Shown here: positions 4,201 to 11,459 of the stretch, piece after piece | How the letters are laid out: each line of letters begins with the position of its first letter | Position numbering within the stretch: position 1 is the stretch's first letter | NCBI RefSeq assembly: GCF_900105835.1 | Contig: NZ_LT629783.1 | Location: 3,556,501-3,620,500, forward strand | DNA length: 64,000 bases | Reading direction: 5' to 3' | DNA from: Pseudomonas fragi | Lineage (GTDB): Bacteria > Pseudomonadota > Gammaproteobacteria > Pseudomonadales > Pseudomonadaceae | Notes under the pieces: model-generated | Database searches by the model: none | Told to the model about the DNA's origin: nothing | Seen by the model: the letters and a program-made list of their open reading frames with translations, nothing else | Program-made: the position numbers and the translations under genes

Positions 4201-6144
4201 ATGCTCAATATCGTTCTTCCCATCCTGCTGTTCGCCGCCCTCGCCCTGACGATAGTGGGCGCCGTGCGTCGTATGAACATGTGGCGCCGTGGCCGCCCGG
4301 CCAGGGTCGATCTGCTTGGCGGGCTGCTGGCCATGCCCCGGCGCTACATGGTCGACTTGCACCATGTGGTTGCCCGCGACAAATACATGGCCAACACCCA
4401 CGTCGCTACGGCTGGCGGCTTTGTGCTGGCGGCCGTGCTGGCGATTCTGGTGCATGGCCTGGGGTTGAATAACCGCATCCTCGGCTATGTCTTGCTGTTG
4501 GCCACGGCGCTGATGTTTGTGGGCGCGCTGTTTGTGTTCAAGCGTCGCCTCAACCCGCCGTCGCGGCTGTCCAAAGGCCCGTGGATGCGCCTGCCGAAAA
4601 GCCTGCTGGTGTTTTCAGCGAGTTTTTTTGTCCTCACCCTGCCGGTGGCCGGTGTGTTGCCCGAAGGCTTTGGCGGCTGGGCGCTGGCGGCGGTGCTGGC
4701 GCTTGGTGTGCTGTGGGGCGTGTCCGAGCTGTTCTTTGGCATGACCTGGGGCGGGCCGATGAAGCATGCCTTCGCCGGTGCCCTGCACCTGGCCTGGCAC
4801 CGTCGCCCCGAACGCTTTGGCGGTGGCCGCTCCACGGGCCTCAAGCCGCTGGACCTGAGCGACCGCAGCGCACCTTTGGGGGTGGAAAAACCCAAGGACT
4901 TCACCTGGAACCAACTGTTGGGCTTTGATGCCTGCGTGCAATGCGGTAAATGCGAAGCCGCGTGCCCGGCCTTCGCCGCCGGCCAGCCGCTCAACCCGAA
5001 AAAGCTGATTCAGGACATGGTGGTCGGGCTGGCGGGTGGCACCGATGCCCATTTTGCGGGTAGCCCGTACCCTGGCAAACCGATTGGTGAACATGGCGGT
5101 AACCCGCACCAGCCGATCGTCAACGGCCTGGTCGATGCCGACACGCTGTGGTCCTGCACCACTTGCCGTGCCTGCGTTGAAGAGTGCCCGATGATGATCG
5201 AGCATGTGGACGCCATCGTCGATATGCGCCGCTTTCTGACCCTGGAAAAAGGCGCGACGCCGAACAACGGTGCCCAGGTGCTGGATAACCTGATCGCCAC
5301 CGATAACCCCGGCGGTTTTGCCCCCGGCGGGCGGATGAACTGGGCAGCAGACCTGAGCCTTGACCTGATGCGCGACAAGCCCGCCGCAGACGTGCTGTTC
5401 TGGGTCGGTGACGGTGCCTTCGACATGCGTAACCAGCGTACCCTGCGTGCTTTCGTCAAAGTGCTCAAGGCCGCGCGGGTCAACTTTGCCGTGCTGGGCC
5501 TGGAGGAGCGCGACAGTGGCGACGTGGCCCGGCGCCTGGGCGATGAAGCGACCTTTCAGGCGCTGGCCAAACGCAATATCCAGACCCTGGCGCAGTACCG
5601 CTTCCAGCGCATCGTCACCTGTGACCCGCACAGTTTCCATGTGCTGAAAAACGAATACGGCGCCTTTGGCGGCGAGTACCTTGTGCAACATCACAGCACT
5701 TACATGGCCGAGCTGATCAGTGCCGGCCTGCTCAATCTCGCTGCGGATGCGGGTGGCAGCGTGACCTATCACGACCCCTGCTACCTGGGCCGCTACAACG
5801 GCGAATACGAGGCGCCGCGCGCGGTGTTGCGCGCGCTGGGCATTGAGGTCAAGGAGATGCAGCGCTCGGGCTTTCGCTCCCGTTGCTGCGGTGGCGGTGG
5901 CGGCGCGCCGATTACCGACATCCCCGGCAAACAGCGGATCCCCGACATGCGTATGGAAGACATCCGCGAGACGGGCGCCGAACGCGTAGCGGTGGGTTGC
6001 CCGCAATGCACGGCGATGCTCGAAGGGGTGGTCGAGCCCCGTGCACAAATCAAGGACATTGCCGAACTGGTGGCCGATGCGCTGATAGAAGACTCAGCTG
6101 CGGCCAAACCGGCCCGGCGCCCTGAAGCTGAGGTGATCGCATGA
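4201..6144 (+). CDS. dgcB: Dimethylglycine demethylase subunit DgcB (membrane Fe-S/heterodisulfide-reductase-like)
   Basis: A 647-residue protein. The N-terminal 190 residues carry several hydrophobic helices (for example LNIVLPILLFAALALTIVG and LLVFSASFFVLTLPVAG). Two 4Fe-4S motifs follow, C-x2-C-x2-C-x3-CP from C245 and from C319. The C-terminal half ends in the CCG domain of heterodisulfide reductase subunits (DPCYLGRYNGEYE, RCCGGGGG, GCPQC). It should anchor DgcA to the membrane and move electrons onward, probably with the ETF whose alpha gene overlaps its stop by ATGA. Confidence 0.93.
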   Translation: MLNIVLPILLFAALALTIVGAVRRMNMWRRGRPARVDLLGGLLAMPRRYMVDLHHVVARDKYMANTHVATAGGFVLAAVLAILVHGLGLNNRILGYVLLLATALMFVGALFVFKRRLNPPSRLSKGPWMRLPKSLLVFSASFFVLTLPVAGVLPEGFGGWALAAVLALGVLWGVSELFFGMTWGGPMKHAFAGALHLAWHRRPERFGGGRSTGLKPLDLSDRSAPLGVEKPKDFTWNQLLGFDACVQCGKCEAACPAFAAGQPLNPKKLIQDMVVGLAGGTDAHFAGSPYPGKPIGEHGGNPHQPIVNGLVDADTLWSCTTCRACVEECPMMIEHVDAIVDMRRFLTLEKGATPNNGAQVLDNLIATDNPGGFAPGGRMNWAADLSLDLMRDKPAADVLFWVGDGAFDMRNQRTLRAFVKVLKAARVNFAVLGLEERDSGDVARRLGDEATFQALAKRNIQTLAQYRFQRIVTCDPHSFHVLKNEYGAFGGEYLVQHHSTYMAELISAGLLNLAADAGGSVTYHDPCYLGRYNGEYEAPRAVLRALGIEVKEMQRSGFRSRCCGGGGGAPITDIPGKQRIPDMRMEDIRETGAERVAVGCPQCTAMLEGVVEPRAQIKDIAELVADALIEDSAAAKPARRPEAEVIA

Positions 6145-7382
6145 GTGACATTATTCGCCGCGACCCGCGTGCCGAGCGGATCGCCCGCAACCGTCTGCAT
6201 CCGTTGCACGCGGCCATGCAACCCGCGCAGCAGAGCTGGATGGGACCCAATGGCGTAGTGCGCAAAAACGTCCACGGTGTGGGCTTTATTGGCCCCAATG
6301 GCATCAAGCGCATAGACCGCAGCGGTGCGCAGCAGGGCGGGGCGAGCAAGCGTCCGGCCCAGGCCGAGGTGCAATTGCCACTGCATCAGATCACGGCTGC
6401 AGCTTTTTATATCGCCGTGGTGCCGGACATGGTCGGCGGCCGCCTGAGCAGTCACGACCGCGATCTGCTCGGGCTGGCCCGACAATTGGCGGGCAGCGAT
6501 GGCGCCGTATTGGCCGTGGTGTTTGGCGAGTGCAAGGAAACGGCCTTTGCCACGGCCGGGGTGGATCGGCTGTTGCTGCTCGACAGCCAGGGTTATGCAC
6601 CGGAGCAACGGGTGCTGGGTTTGCGCGCTGTGGATAACCAGTTTGCGCCGCGCCACTGGCTGTTGCCTGACAGCCGCACGGGGGGCGGTGAACTGGGCCG
6701 ACGCTTTGCCGCCAGCCTGGGCGAGCGCCCGGCTACGCGGGTGTGGCAGGTCAAGGACGGCGCCTGTATCGGCCGTGCCGGTGCGGGCCTGCAGGATCTG
6801 GCGCAGCCGTTGCGCCGGTTGATTCTGGCGACGGCCGAATGCGCCGAACCGGTCAGTGAAACCCGTCATGAAGCCTTGGTGGTGCAGTTATCCACAGCCG
6901 TAGTGCCGTGCCTGGCGCGGATCGAGGATTTGGGCGCGGTGGAGGTCGACCCGGCCGCGGTGCCTATGGCCGAGGCCGAATTTATCCTCAGCGGCGGCAA
7001 CGGGGTTAAAGACTGGGCGCTTTTCCACAAGGCAGCGGCGGCACTGGGCGCCACCGAAGGTGCGTCGCGGGTGGCGGTGGATGACGGCTTTATGGGGCGT
7101 GACCGGCAGGTGGGTGCCAGTGGCACCTGGGTCACGGCGCGGGTCTATGTGGCGATCGGCATCAGCGGTGCGATCCAGCACCTGCAAGGGATTGGCGCGT
7201 GCGACAAGGTGGTGGCGATTAACCAGGATGCGGGCTGCGACATGATCAAACGCGCTGATTTGTCGGTCATCGGTGACGGGGCGGCGGTGCTTGAAGCGCT
7301 GATCGTGGCTGTGGATAACTGGCGCAACGCAAACTCTGTGGGAGCGGGCTCGCCCGCGATTCAGGCGACCCGGTCTGCCTGA
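6141..7382 (+). CDS. etfA: Electron transfer flavoprotein alpha subunit of the dgc operon
   Basis: A 413-residue EtfA-type protein. The FAD-binding C-terminal domain shows GRDRQVGASGTWV, AIGISGAIQHLQGI and VVAINQDAGCDM. The first 80 residues are extra compared with housekeeping EtfA, typical of the ETF dedicated to dimethylglycine catabolism (PA5400-like). It starts in the last codon of dgcB (ATGA overlap). The last 15 residues (NSVGAGSPAIQATRSA region) are encoded by a REP copy, so the natural C-terminus has probably been replaced. Two perfect DnaA boxes (6888, 7310) lie in the coding sequence. Confidence 0.9.
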   Translation: MSDIIRRDPRAERIARNRLHPLHAAMQPAQQSWMGPNGVVRKNVHGVGFIGPNGIKRIDRSGAQQGGASKRPAQAEVQLPLHQITAAAFYIAVVPDMVGGRLSSHDRDLLGLARQLAGSDGAVLAVVFGECKETAFATAGVDRLLLLDSQGYAPEQRVLGLRAVDNQFAPRHWLLPDSRTGGGELGRRFAASLGERPATRVWQVKDGACIGRAGAGLQDLAQPLRRLILATAECAEPVSETRHEALVVQLSTAVVPCLARIEDLGAVEVDPAAVPMAEAEFILSGGNGVKDWALFHKAAAALGATEGASRVAVDDGFMGRDRQVGASGTWVTARVYVAIGISGAIQHLQGIGACDKVVAINQDAGCDMIKRADLSVIGDGAAVLEALIVAVDNWRNANSVGAGSPAIQATRSA

Positions 7383-7423
7383 TCCACCGCAGTGATCCCA
7401 TCGCGAGCAAGCCCGCTCCCACA
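7337..7423. repeat. REP inverted pair (family 1) overlapping the 3' end of etfA
   Basis: Left arm TGTGGGAGCGGGCTCGCCCG, right arm CGAGCAAGCCCGCTCCCACA. The left arm and loop are translated as the EtfA C-terminus; the stop codon lies at 7380-7382, inside the element. Confidence 0.93.
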
Positions 7424-7451
7424 GGATTGAGTTCAGTCTGGAGATTTATAG

Positions 7452-8222
7452 ATGACCATCGCCACCGTTGCACTGGTTTCAATCGGCGCCCATCCCGCTT
7501 CAGGCCGCAACCGTCGCGCCGAGCAGGACGCGCGCGCCGTCGAGCTGGGCCTGGAGCTGGTTGGGGATAATCTGCATGTGCTGCATGCGGGCAACCCCCA
7601 TGAGCCGGCCTTGCGCGCCTATCTGGGCATGGGCCTGGACGAACTGCATGTGCTGGAACAAGCGGACGGCGCCGATGCCGTGCCGGTGTTGCGCGATTAC
7701 ATCCGCGAGGCCGGTGTGCAACTGGTGCTCACCGGCAGCCAGGCCGAAACCGGCGAAGGCTCGGGCATGCTCCCGTACCTGCTGGCCGAGGAGCTGGGCT
7801 GGCCACTGCTGGTGGGCGTGGCGCAGATCGAATCTGTCCACAACGGCGTGGCACAGGTGCTGCAAGCCTTGCCCCGGGGCCAGCGACGCCGGCTGCAGGT
7901 GCGACTGCCGTTTCTGGTCACTGTGGATAACGCTGCTCCCAAGGCGCGGCAAAGCGCCTACGGCCCTGCCACGCGGGGTTTGGTCAACGCCGAAGTGGTT
8001 GAAATCGTCGCCGATGAGTTATCCACAACGGGGAGCCTGCAACCTGCGCGACCACGGCCCAAGCGCTTGAAGGTGATCAAGGCCAAGAGTGGCGCAGATC
8101 GTATGAAAGCCGCTACGGCCAAGTCCGCTGGCGGTTCCGGGCAAGTGCTCAAGGGCATCGGTGCCGAAGAGGGTGCCCAGGCCATTTTGAAGCTGTTGAT
8201 TGAAGAAGGTGTGGTGCGCTGA
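7452..8222 (+). CDS. etfB: Electron transfer flavoprotein beta subunit of the dgc operon
   Basis: A 256-residue EtfB family protein (AMP-binding side of the ETF heterodimer). Family features are TIATVALVSIGAHPASG at the start, LTGSQAETGEGSGMLPYLLAEELGWP in the middle, and VTVDNAAPKARQSAYGPATRG near residue 160. It pairs with the EtfA encoded 69 bp upstream to carry electrons from demethylation to the quinone pool. The coding sequence contains perfect DnaA boxes at 7922 and 8019. It is convergent with gbcA across a 561-bp gap. Confidence 0.92.
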   Translation: MTIATVALVSIGAHPASGRNRRAEQDARAVELGLELVGDNLHVLHAGNPHEPALRAYLGMGLDELHVLEQADGADAVPVLRDYIREAGVQLVLTGSQAETGEGSGMLPYLLAEELGWPLLVGVAQIESVHNGVAQVLQALPRGQRRRLQVRLPFLVTVDNAAPKARQSAYGPATRGLVNAEVVEIVADELSTTGSLQPARPRPKRLKVIKAKSGADRMKAATAKSAGGSGQVLKGIGAEEGAQAILKLLIEEGVVR

Positions 8223-8251
8223 CACTTGCCCACAAAGTCTGTTAGCGCTTA

Positions 8252-8660
8252 TGTGGATAAGTTGTTTGCTATCGTCCGTAAGCCATATAGACCGGGCCTT
8301 GCAAGGTTCTGGTCAAAAAACGATCAATCTGCTGTTTTATCCACTGGCCAGCCTTTAAACCCCTGAATAATCGGTTGATTGCGCGGTTTTCCACAGTCTG
8401 GGCGGCCAGTGCATAAGTTGCGCACAATCTCTGTTGGTGGATATGTGGATAAGGTGTTCGCGGCTGGCTACAGACCTTTAGAATCGTGGCTTGCAGGGTG
8501 TTGTACAAAAAACGCTCAATCGTGATTATCCGCACGACTTGTCCACTTCCCCACAATTGCTGTGGGTGTGCCTGTGGACAAGTTGTTAGCGGAGGGCTGT
8601 GGCCCTTGCCGTGCGTGGCGTGTAGAGGTTTGATCGAAAAGTGATCAGTGCTGGCTATGT
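8252..8660 (+). repeat. Three diverged tandem modules, each led by a DnaA box
   Basis: Modules begin at 8252 (TGTGGATAAG), 8444 (TGTGGATAAG) and 8573 (TGTGGACAAG). In all three a 15-mer starts exactly 62 bp after the first base of the box: CAAAAAACGATCAAT at 8314, CAAAAAACGCTCAAT at 8506, CGAAAAGTGATCAGT at 8635. The first two modules also share CTTGCAAGG/CTTGCAGGG 46 bp in and a reversed box 82-85 bp in (8337, 8526). No ORF or tRNA is present, and the rest of the 8223-8783 gap holds only a short REP. Confidence 0.7.
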
Positions 8661-8742
8661 CCGATTATAAACAACTTGGCCCAGCGCATTTATGAGCGTC
8701 ATGGGTTCGAGATCGTCCAAACCTGTCAGATAAGCCCCTCAA

Positions 8743-8770
8743 TGTGGGAGCGGGCTTGCCCGCCCCCACA
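8743..8770. repeat. Shortened REP (family 1) just after the gbcA stop
   Basis: TGTGGGAGCGGGCTTGCCCG runs directly into CCCCCACA, so this is one arm with a truncated partner. It lies 13 bp beyond the gbcA stop codon and could act as a terminator hairpin for gbcA. Confidence 0.8.
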
Positions 8771-8783
8771 GGTTGATGTGTAT

Positions 8784-10076
8784 TTATTGGGCAACTACAC
8801 CCTTGAGGTACGCCGCCGGCGCCGCCCCCAGGTTGTTCAGCAGCCGCTCGCTGTACCAGTCGACAAAGTTGACCACACCAAACTCGTAGGTTTGCGAGTA
8901 CGGCCCTGGTTGGTAGGCGATCGAGTTGATACCGCGCTGGTTTTCTTCTGCCAGGCGGCGGTCCTGGTCGTTGGTGGCGTCCCAGACCTTGCGCATGCGT
9001 TCCACGTCGTAGTCCACGCCTTCGACCGCGTCCTTGTGGACCAGCCATTTGGTGGTGACCACAGTTTCCTGCGCGCTGATCGGCCACACCGTGAACACGA
9101 TGATATGGTCGCCCATGCAGTGGTTCCAGGAGTGGGGCAGATGCAGGATACGCATCGAGCCCAGGTCCGGGTTTTTGATGCGCCCCATCAGCTTTGCGCA
9201 GCCTTGTTTGCCATCCAGGGTCATCGACACGGTGCCCTTGAGCAGTGGCATGCGCACGATGCGGTTGCGCAGGCCGAAGCTGGCATGGGCGTAGGGGATT
9301 TTTTCGGCGTCCCAGGCGGCGGCCGAAGCCGCGACGTGATCCTTGAATGCCTGGTCGGCGCGCGGGTCGGTGACGTCGTCCCATTCCAGCAGGGTCTTGA
9401 GCAACTCGGGGTGCGACGCATTGCAGTGGTAGCACTCGCGGTTGTTTTCCAGCACCAGCTTCCAGTTGGCCTTTTCCACCAGGGTGGTCTGGATCGCCAC
9501 CTTGGTGTTTTCCATGTCATAGGGTTCCATGTAGTGGTTCAGGGTGGCCAGGAACTCATCGATGGCAGGCGGGTTCTCGGCCAGGCTGATAAAGATGTAG
9601 CCGCCCGCCGTTTTGACGTTCACCGGCTTGAGGCCGTATTGCTTCATGTCGAAATCGGCGCCCATCTCGGTGCCGGCAAACAGCAGGCGCCCGTCCAGCT
9701 CGTAGGTCCACTGGTGGTAATGGCACACCAGTTTGGCGACCTTGCCCTTTTCGCTGGTACACAGCCGCGAGCCGCGATGGCGGCACACGTTATGAAAGGC
9801 ATGCACCTGGCCTTCGGCGCCGCGGATCACGATGATCGGGTTGTTGCCCACCTGCAGGGTCAGGAAGTTGCCCTTGGCCGGAATCTCGCAGGTCATACCT
9901 GCAATCAGCCACTCCTTCTGGAAGATCTCCTGCATGTCGATCTGAAACAGACGCTCGTCGTTATAGAACGGCTGCGGCAGCGAATAGGTGCGCTCGCGGT
10001 TCTGCAGCATCTCGGCGGTGGCCTTGCGTGCGGGTTCCAGTGGATCGCCCAGGCTCAGGTTTGCGGTGACGTCCAT
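8784..10076 (-). CDS. gbcA: Glycine betaine monooxygenase oxygenase subunit GbcA
   Basis: A 430-residue Rieske non-heme iron oxygenase that removes a methyl group from glycine betaine, giving dimethylglycine and formaldehyde. The Rieske 2Fe-2S ligands are C98-x-H100 and C118-x2-H121 (CRHRGS...CHYHQW). The catalytic domain has the NNRECYHCNASHPELL iron-site region. I start it at ATG 10076 (MDVTANLSLGDPLE), with AGGA 8 bases upstream, rather than at the in-frame ATGs up to 10097. It is divergent from its reductase gene gbcB over a 282-bp control region. Confidence 0.94.
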   Translation of the reverse strand: MDVTANLSLGDPLEPARKATAEMLQNRERTYSLPQPFYNDERLFQIDMQEIFQKEWLIAGMTCEIPAKGNFLTLQVGNNPIIVIRGAEGQVHAFHNVCRHRGSRLCTSEKGKVAKLVCHYHQWTYELDGRLLFAGTEMGADFDMKQYGLKPVNVKTAGGYIFISLAENPPAIDEFLATLNHYMEPYDMENTKVAIQTTLVEKANWKLVLENNRECYHCNASHPELLKTLLEWDDVTDPRADQAFKDHVAASAAAWDAEKIPYAHASFGLRNRIVRMPLLKGTVSMTLDGKQGCAKLMGRIKNPDLGSMRILHLPHSWNHCMGDHIIVFTVWPISAQETVVTTKWLVHKDAVEGVDYDVERMRKVWDATNDQDRRLAEENQRGINSIAYQPGPYSQTYEFGVVNFVDWYSERLLNNLGAAPAAYLKGVVAQ

Positions 10077-10258
10077 CGTTGTAGTCCTCATGGCCATCGG
10101 ATGTGGCCTAAAAATGGCTGATCAGGGGTGCGACGCAAGGCAAAGCAATACATGCAATGAGTGGCGCTGAGTGTGCGTTCGAAGTGCGTCGGGGCCATAT
10201 CTGCGGGCGACATGGCCCAATCTGTTCCCGACGCGCAAGCGCCCACTCTCAGGGGCTG

Positions 10259-10358: not shown

Positions 10359-11459
10359 ATGTCCAACAGCTTTCTGAACCCGGTAACCACCCAGACCTGG
10401 GCCAATGGCCGACACATCGTGCGATGCGTCAAAGTGATTCAGGAAACCTGGGATGTGCGCACCTTCTGCTTTATGGCCGACCAGCCAATCCTGTTCTTTT
10501 TCAAGCCGGGGCAGTTCGTGACCCTGGAGCTGGAAATCGACGGTGACCCGGTGATGCGCTCGTACACCATTTCCAGTTCGCCGTCGGTGCCGTACAGCTT
10601 TTCAGTGACCATCAAGCGCGTGCCCGGTGGGCGGGTGTCCAACTGGCTGCACGACACCCTGCAGGAAGGCCAGGAGCTGGCGGTACACGGCCCGGTCGGG
10701 CTGTTCAACGCCATCGATGCGCCCAGCCCCAAGGTGCTGTACCTCAGCGGTGGTGTCGGGATTACCCCGGTGATGTCGATGGCGCGCTGGTTCTACGACA
10801 CCAACGCCAATGTCGACATGGTGTTTATCCACAGCGCCCGTTCGCCCAAGGACATCATTTACCACCGCGAGCTGGAGCATATGGCCTCGCGTATCGACAA
10901 CTTCAGCCTGCACCTGATCTGCGAGAAGCACGGGCTGGGCGAACCCTGGGCCGGGTATCGCGGCTATCTGAACCACAAGATGCTCGACCTGATGGCGCCC
11001 GACTTTATGGAGCGCGAGGTGTTTTGCTGCGGGCCGACGCCTTATATGAATGCGGTCAAGCGTCTGCTGGAAAGCAACGGTTTCGACATGAGCCGTTATC
11101 ACGAAGAGTCGTTTGGCGCGACGCCGCCCGAAGTGCGGGCCGAGGCGGTGGAACAGGCCGAGCAGGCGGCCGACGCGCCGGAGCTGGACGTGGCGGACTT
11201 GAATCAGGTGGAATTCACCGCTTCTGGCAAAAGCATCCGCGTGGGCCCAAGCGAGACGGTACATGCGGCTGCGGCCAAACTCGGGCTGATGATCCCCAAG
11301 GCCTGCGGCATGGGTATTTGCGGGACATGCAAGGTGCTGAAACTGGGCGGCGAGGTGGAGATGGAGCACAACGGCGGCATCACCGATGAAGACGTCGCCG
11401 AGGGCTACATCCTGTCGTGTTGCAGCGTGCCCAAAGGCGATGTGCGCATTGAGTTTTGA
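10359..11459 (+). CDS. gbcB: Glycine betaine monooxygenase reductase subunit GbcB
   Basis: A 366-residue ferredoxin-NADP reductase-like protein that feeds electrons to GbcA. An FAD-binding barrel comes first (VMRSYTISSSP), then the NAD domain (LYLSGGVGITPVMSMARW), then a C-terminal plant-type 2Fe-2S ferredoxin with C316, C321 and C324 (CGMGICGTC) and a final Cys in YILSCC. I start at ATG 10359 (MSNSFLNPVT) with GGAG upstream, four codons into the longest frame. Confidence 0.94.
   Translation: MSNSFLNPVTTQTWANGRHIVRCVKVIQETWDVRTFCFMADQPILFFFKPGQFVTLELEIDGDPVMRSYTISSSPSVPYSFSVTIKRVPGGRVSNWLHDTLQEGQELAVHGPVGLFNAIDAPSPKVLYLSGGVGITPVMSMARWFYDTNANVDMVFIHSARSPKDIIYHRELEHMASRIDNFSLHLICEKHGLGEPWAGYRGYLNHKMLDLMAPDFMEREVFCCGPTPYMNAVKRLLESNGFDMSRYHEESFGATPPEVRAEAVEQAEQAADAPELDVADLNQVEFTASGKSIRVGPSETVHAAAAKLGLMIPKACGMGICGTCKVLKLGGEVEMEHNGGITDEDVAEGYILSCCSVPKGDVRIEF

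Follow-up and report, generated by a model that had tools for sequence, protein, structure and literature searches.

Why does a dense cluster of DnaA boxes lie inside and beyond a pair of etfA- and etfB-like genes in Pseudomonas fragi, about 317 kb from dnaA and a typical oriC? The window analysed here is a stretch of 64,000 nucleotides (3556501-3620500 of the 5,072,204-bp genome). It carries ten perfect TTATCCACA boxes, seven in the cluster and the others at 10825, 14013 and 61299. Six of the seven (6888, 7310, 7922, 8019, 8252 and 8444) had been described in an earlier note on this DNA and were all recovered at these positions, as were four one-mismatch boxes at 8337, 8387, 8526 and 8573. 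The cluster had nevertheless been understated. A seventh perfect box, at 6629 on the minus strand, had been overlooked; it brings the count to seven within 1.8 kb and raises the number in coding sequence from the four claimed to five (6629, 6888 and 7310 in etfA, 7922 and 8019 in etfB). Boxes 8252 and 8444 fall into the gap at 8223-8783, where the 3' end of etfB faces that of a Rieske oxygenase gene (8784..10097) that we take to be gbcA (Table 1). The closest named relatives of the EtfB protein include those of P. fragi, P. bubulae and P. psychrophila (92-93% identity). Between etfA and etfB lies a GC-rich inverted repeat (approximately 7338-7424), which, we presume, resembles a Pseudomonas REP element. 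The perfect box at 10825-10833 is located inside a gbcB-like gene, and many relatives have boxes at a matching distance past gbcA.

Table 1. Genes, DnaA boxes and array units of the locus (window coordinates).
Feature	Position	Strand	Basis
etfA-like gene, three boxes inside	6141..7382	+	NCBIfam NF051845 above cut-off
Perfect DnaA box, etfA	6629..6637	-	Scan; kept in 117/123 distinct genus sequences
Perfect DnaA box, etfA, codons TTA-TCC-ACA	6888..6896	+	Scan; kept in 111/123
Perfect DnaA box near etfA 3' end, not widely conserved	7310..7318	-	Kept in 14/123
etfB-like gene, two boxes inside	7452..8222	+	Pfam PF01012
Perfect DnaA box, etfB	7922..7930	-	Scan; kept in 80/123
Perfect DnaA box, etfB	8019..8027	+	Kept as TTATNCACA in 52/123
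Array-bearing gap, convergent 3' ends of etfB and gbcA	8223..8783	.	GC 0.51
Array unit 1: strong box 8252-8260, weak middle, inverted 8226-8234	8226..8260	-	Exact composite; DARS-geometry 17 of 24
One-mismatch DnaA box TTATCCACT, between array units	8337..8345	+	Scan
DnaA box TTTTCCACA, fits wider consensus TT[A/T]TNCACA	8387..8395	+	Scan
Array unit 2: strong box 8444-8452, inverted 8418-8426	8418..8452	-	Exact composite; DARS-geometry 18 of 24
One-mismatch DnaA box TTATCCGCA	8526..8534	+	Scan
Array unit 3: first box 8573-8581 = TTGTCCACA	8547..8581	-	One mismatch to composite; DARS-geometry 18 of 24
gbcA-like Rieske oxygenase gene, 3' end flanks array	8784..10097	-	Pfam PF00355 + PF00848

Less than one perfect copy had been expected in a window of this size, and dinucleotide shuffling agreed (mean 0.20, largest 2 in 100 shuffles). 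A chance origin of the cluster was rejected on the ten boxes observed against 0.20 expected, together with the genus-wide conservation described below. Across the whole genome, TTATNCACA occurs 166 times and the reversed pattern 34 times. The proposal that the cluster is unusual could have been undermined by many loci of comparable density, and only oriC proved as dense among the 141 listed of the 166 positions (the other 25 lie beyond 3.785 Mb): the cluster and oriC hold seven boxes each in their densest 2 kb, and the next independent stretches hold four. The same 141 positions are crowded around oriC and nearly absent from the far part of the genome: the first 1.57 Mb has 5, 74 fall within the Mb to the left of oriC and 47 within the 0.54 Mb that follows on its right. 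This origin-proximal richness is real, yet as a whole explanation it gives neither conserved positions nor triplets.

A box density in 2 kb that equals that of oriC raises the question of whether the locus is a second origin, or the relic of one. In some relatives the arrays are also as AT-rich as oriC over 40 bp (lowest GC 0.15, median 0.30 among 107 arrays). In this genome, however, the most AT-rich 40 bp of the gap have a GC of 0.375, versus 0.175 at oriC, the GC skew is positive in the 8-kb bins on either side of the 8-kb mark and thus shows no switch of sign, and the boxes of the units are arranged differently from those of oriC. The chromosome also has its oriC elsewhere, with six boxes in 273 bp immediately before dnaA (start at approximately 3,246,732). 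The suggestion of a second origin-like element, made in the earlier note, finds no support here, and we regard this explanation as extremely improbable.

To what extent are the boxes retained in related Pseudomonas? The genus comparison comprised 133 rows (the window plus 52 plus 80 loci), of which 123 were distinct in etfA-etfB. Retention ranged from nearly all of these sequences for boxes 6629 and 6888, over intermediate values for 7922 and 8019, to very few for 7310 (Table 1). The 9-mer at 6629 was identical in 95% of the rows, and the median etfA 9-mer in about 6%. Since some other stretches are equally conserved (offset 1095 of etfA, 99%), 9-mer identity is not unique to the boxes, and more weight falls on the choice of codons. 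Box 6888 requires TTA, a codon used for 3.6% of the leucines across the rows of etfA and etfB. Underneath box 8019, the 52 rows that keep it encode four residues (Phe in 32 rows, Ser in 17 and either Cys or Tyr in 3), and the residue change is confined to the free position of the box. This box was lost in 71 of the 123 rows, in 8 of them through the last base alone.

Outside the genus the boxes are largely missing. At the corresponding sites, 0 to 1 of 19 outgroup rows had a box (locus L089 excluded). Among 20 loci from other genera, 14 were boxless in the stretch shown, two had one box about 4.9 kb away, two had a single gap box, L085 had four boxes and L089 carried the full genus-type set. 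L089 (G326) is filed under another genus (g9) and may be misfiled, or the region may have been exchanged. Dictation of the boxes by the protein sequence is ruled out by the codon use and by the other genera, which keep the proteins. The earlier argument for selection on the DNA itself, drawn from the coding boxes, is supported by their genus-wide retention through codon choice. Judged from sequence comparison, these data support a candidate box locus outside the origin that is selected at the DNA level and is of the datA/DARS kind.

Downstream of etfB, a chain of at least two boxes was present in 101 of the 123 distinct rows. The chain search covered boxes on the minus strand relative to etfB, with steps of at most 270 bp; single plus-strand boxes also occur in the gap of some rows. 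In the remaining 22 rows the chain was absent from the fetched stretch, and 20 of these lacked gbcA in that stretch, two of them with less than 1 kb of flank. Eight loci without an array near etfB were extended by 17-19 kb, which revealed an array in three, two chained boxes beside gbcA in one and none in four; in one of these four genomes the array lies on another contig, 240 bp beyond the 3' end of gbcA. The array is located beside gbcA in L106, about 2 kb from it in L108 and about 7 kb from it in L105.

DnaA also acts as a transcription factor, and an array that stays beside gbcA in many genomes, even with etfB elsewhere, might be thought to mediate DnaA-dependent regulation of the neighbouring genes. 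Against this, the array of this window is situated between convergent 3' ends, where the promoter of neither gene is expected, and in L105 and L108 its spacing is preserved despite the kilobases that separate it from gbcA. Regulation of the neighbours is thus very unlikely to be the explanation.

The arrays hold two to six chained boxes, whose spacings fall into clusters of 54-55, 66, 104-106, 127-129, 148-150, 159-162, 171-173, 181-184, 191-193 and 256-259 bp, with single values of 86, 97 and 102 bp. The best period was 10.65-10.75 bp, with R 0.85 for 135 spacings from distinct patterns and R 0.71 for 13 cluster centres. Against the null this gave p 0.001 (period scanned from 10 to 11.3), a value that comes from a test devised after the pattern had been seen and taking no account of descent.

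The sequence surrounding 381 distinct array boxes follows a fixed motif, gCgAACAnnTTATCCACAnnnnnnCnnACAGnnnnTGtGggtAA, which can be read as three DnaA sites: a strong box at 0-8, a weak site or half-box at 12-20 and, in inverted orientation, a box at 26-34. Among inverted offsets, +26 was the best, with a mean of 5.71 of 8 against a background of 2.29 and at least 6 in 257 of the 381 units. The middle site at +12 is weak (3.72 of 8 against a background of 2.31); it ranked only eighth among the forward offsets, the first side peak being at -58. The exact composite TTATCCACA-N9-ACAG-N4-TGNGNNNAA was matched by 311 of 382 chained boxes.

Together, the box and its inverted partner make up an inverted repeat with 17 bp between the arms, and the genes on either side converge, so the units might instead belong to an RNA hairpin or terminator family. 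In the middle units, however, the inverted site often reads TTTGGGGGCAA; this disrupts the stem, with the first arm remaining invariant, and copies are found in other gene settings. An Rfam search of 6000-9000 gave no matches, and we give the hairpin hardly any credence.

The layout of the triplet is that of the DARS cores of E. coli. DARS1 reads TAATACACA-TGG-TTATCCACA-GGAAT-AGTGGATAA and the DARS2 core TTCTTCACA-ACT-CTATCCACA-GAAAA-GGTGAATAA, both with sites at 0 and 12 and an inverted site at 26. The identity of these core sites was taken from a table in PMC11317965 and from deletion primers in PMC4585315, each source used in part. According to passages of PMC5742627, the spacing is equal in DARS1 and DARS2, and box I is opposed to boxes II and III. 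Like the array, DARS1 (bioD-uvrB) and DARS2 (upstream of mutH) lie outside the origin in non-coding DNA, and their cores also have a G after the second site. We scored this geometry (sites 0, 12 and inverted 26 against the plain DnaA consensus, out of 24) along the 64-kb window, and the three array units came out on top (18, 18 and 17, the 17 being tied with an opposite-strand reading at the same place). In E. coli the score was 22 for DARS1, 21 for the DARS2 core, 19 for the second DARS2 triple and 18 for the best datA position. As the last value equals the level of the array units, datA and the array cannot be told apart by the summed score on its own.

The inverted site is more informative. 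E. coli double boxes (polA, purH, nrdA, oriC and others, in the part of PMC11317965 used) have the same 12-bp pitch as the array, and this pitch would be accounted for by the preference of DnaA for boxes 2-3 bp apart (PMC11317965, same part), an explanation that does not extend to the inverted site. The E. coli ChIP-seq table contains 13 distinct double boxes, and of these DARS1 and the DARS2 core alone gave 7 of 8 for the inverted site at +26; it scored 5 at the second DARS2 triple and at nrdD, 4 at datA and 1-3 at the rest, so that outside the two cores these double boxes, unlike the array, offer only 1-5 of 8. At rpoH, which is no DARS, a perfect inverted box stands at +25 and so misses the DARS position by a single base.

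The array has the three fixed-spaced sites of a DARS core, with box I opposed to the other two, in layout more than in strength. Its strong box stands at the front (III), in contrast to the E. coli DARS, where the middle box (II) is strong and boxes I and II are the key pair; a strong middle box is a feature of the E. coli cores and not a published requirement of all DARS. Further differences are the two to six chained boxes in place of one core, the position nearer the origin, the extra strong boxes in the flanking genes and the lack of a conserved IHF site. A perfect IHF consensus at 8368-8380, between boxes in the window, had made an IHF-assisted analogue of datA or DARS2 look promising. 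This candidate was dropped, as such a perfect match occurs near only 4 of 101 arrays, so that neither a DARS2-type nor a datA-type IHF site can be assigned to them. Of the comparison with datA and DARS drawn in the earlier note, it is the DARS half rather than the datA half that holds for the site layout of the gap units. Compared with DARS, the core layout would be known already, and what would be new are the copy number, the identity of the strong site, the cofactor site and the place.

datA does share traits with the locus: it is rich in boxes, its distance from oriC is similar as a share of the chromosome, and it contains a weak box and a strong one at a 12-bp pitch. The boxes might then serve as a titration sink or a datA-like ATP-hydrolysis site that holds or inactivates DnaA soon after the locus is copied and so prevents re-initiation, the triplets being simply tight binding sites. 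There are many strong boxes near oriC, and they crowd around it. In 41 genomes of the genus the distance from dnaA to etfB is 5.7-17.1% of the genome; in 57 genomes it is 2.3-17.1% (median 7.9%), a set that includes 16 genomes from other genera, mostly without the array, and 26 rounded genome sizes. datA is similarly placed, at 94.7 against 84.6 min (PMC5742627, in part), and for E. coli there is a report of titration (PMC12371093, in part). In any case DnaA favours boxes with 2-3 bp between them. A sink, however, needs neither the exact spacing nor the inverted site at +26, which among the 13 double boxes is good only at the DARS cores and poor at datA, and the IHF site that datA requires is not conserved in the array. 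We consider this explanation possible, though rather unlikely. Clusters of DnaA boxes in Bacillus subtilis and Streptomyces also lie outside the origin and are said, in passages of PMC5742627, to restrain initiation; the likeness to the present locus is one of description.

Copies of the triplet occur beyond the array. The exact composite is found six times in the genome, twice in the array and at 2.540, 2.671, 3.429 and 3.963 Mb. It is present in 155 of 298 genomes of the family, and the reversed control gave zero among the genomes listed. Flanking DNA is common to copies in two genera at 2,671,104, beside livF-like genes, and at 2,540,145, between a YigZ-family and an SDR gene. At 3,963,341, between a TIGR03862 flavoprotein gene and a gene with a histone-deacetylase domain, flanks are shared within the genus, and for the copy at 3,428,579, inside an ORF, no flank-sharing relative was found among those fetched. 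At 2887-3950 of L253 (G376:C13) there are five tandem composite triplets at steps of 257-258 bp, and the DNA flanking this locus is also present beside the solitary copy at 3.963 Mb. When 29 distinct composites of other genera were compared, two positions that had not been selected for were T (position 15) in 22 and C (position 17) in all 29; the middle site is accordingly a TNCACAG half-box in 22 and NCACAG in 29.

A strict pattern, TTATNCACA-N6-TNCACAG-N4-TGTG-N3-AA, yielded 29 sites in 25 of 369 genomes of the class, a rare module by this measure, and none for the reversed control. Of the 27 sites outside the window genome, 24 have a perfect middle TTATNCACA and 17 have three perfect boxes. 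When the last gap was freed to N0-30, 30 sites were found in the 369 genomes, 29 of them at N4 and one at N3, against one for the reversed control. In the window genome the strict pattern picks up the solitary triplets at 2.540 and 3.963 Mb and misses the array units because their middle site is too degenerate. DARS-spaced triplets of perfect DnaA boxes thus occur in 24 further genomes of the class.

What, then, might the locus do? That it has some role in the control of DnaA seems very likely, and it is probably a site that controls the timing of replication. By a small degree we favour a chromosomal control site for DnaA activity whose working part would be the tandem DARS-like array. This interpretation is built on sequence features: the genus-wide conservation, a triplet geometry equal to that of the DARS1 and DARS2 cores, spacing steps of approximately 10.7 bp and, for this genome, the lack of features of an origin. 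In DARS, boxes I and II bring ADP-DnaA molecules together head to head, and their ADP is released (PMC8682772 and PMC5742627, in the passages concerned). As the Pseudomonas triplets have DARS geometry, a similar recharging is suggested, and whether nucleotide exchange is the main role we judge to be an even call. DnaA would bind the array triplets, and opposed protomers would lose ADP, by which DnaA would be recharged with ATP as at DARS. The outer triplet sites would perhaps form the main DnaA pair. Helical phasing might let adjacent units join one complex, and the strong boxes in etfA and etfB might act as satellites that load DnaA.

For E. coli relatives, the available parts of two papers describe conservation of the DARS2 core (PMC4245941) and a comparison of seven E. 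coli-related species (PMC8682772). Among the open-licence PMC papers listed by literature searches there was no report of a datA or DARS locus in Pseudomonas, and the word Pseudomonas is absent from the main text of PMC4245941, PMC8682772, PMC4585315, PMC12371093 and the 2026 review PMC13220808. In the portion of PMC10218098 consulted, Pseudomonas and DARS/datA are both named, in unrelated passages. More tentatively, and at rather less than even odds, recharging might extend beyond the E. coli relatives: the class would share a fixed-geometry module of three DnaA sites, which Pseudomonas would have multiplied into a helically phased array near oriC, with solitary copies on both arms, and a distributed recharging network together with an origin-centred titrating gradient would set DnaA activity. 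A conserved, compact and largely non-coding locus whose parts can be removed singly would make the control of replication timing directly testable in Pseudomonas, and the class-wide triplet would serve as a sequence signature with which to look for DnaA control sites elsewhere among bacteria.
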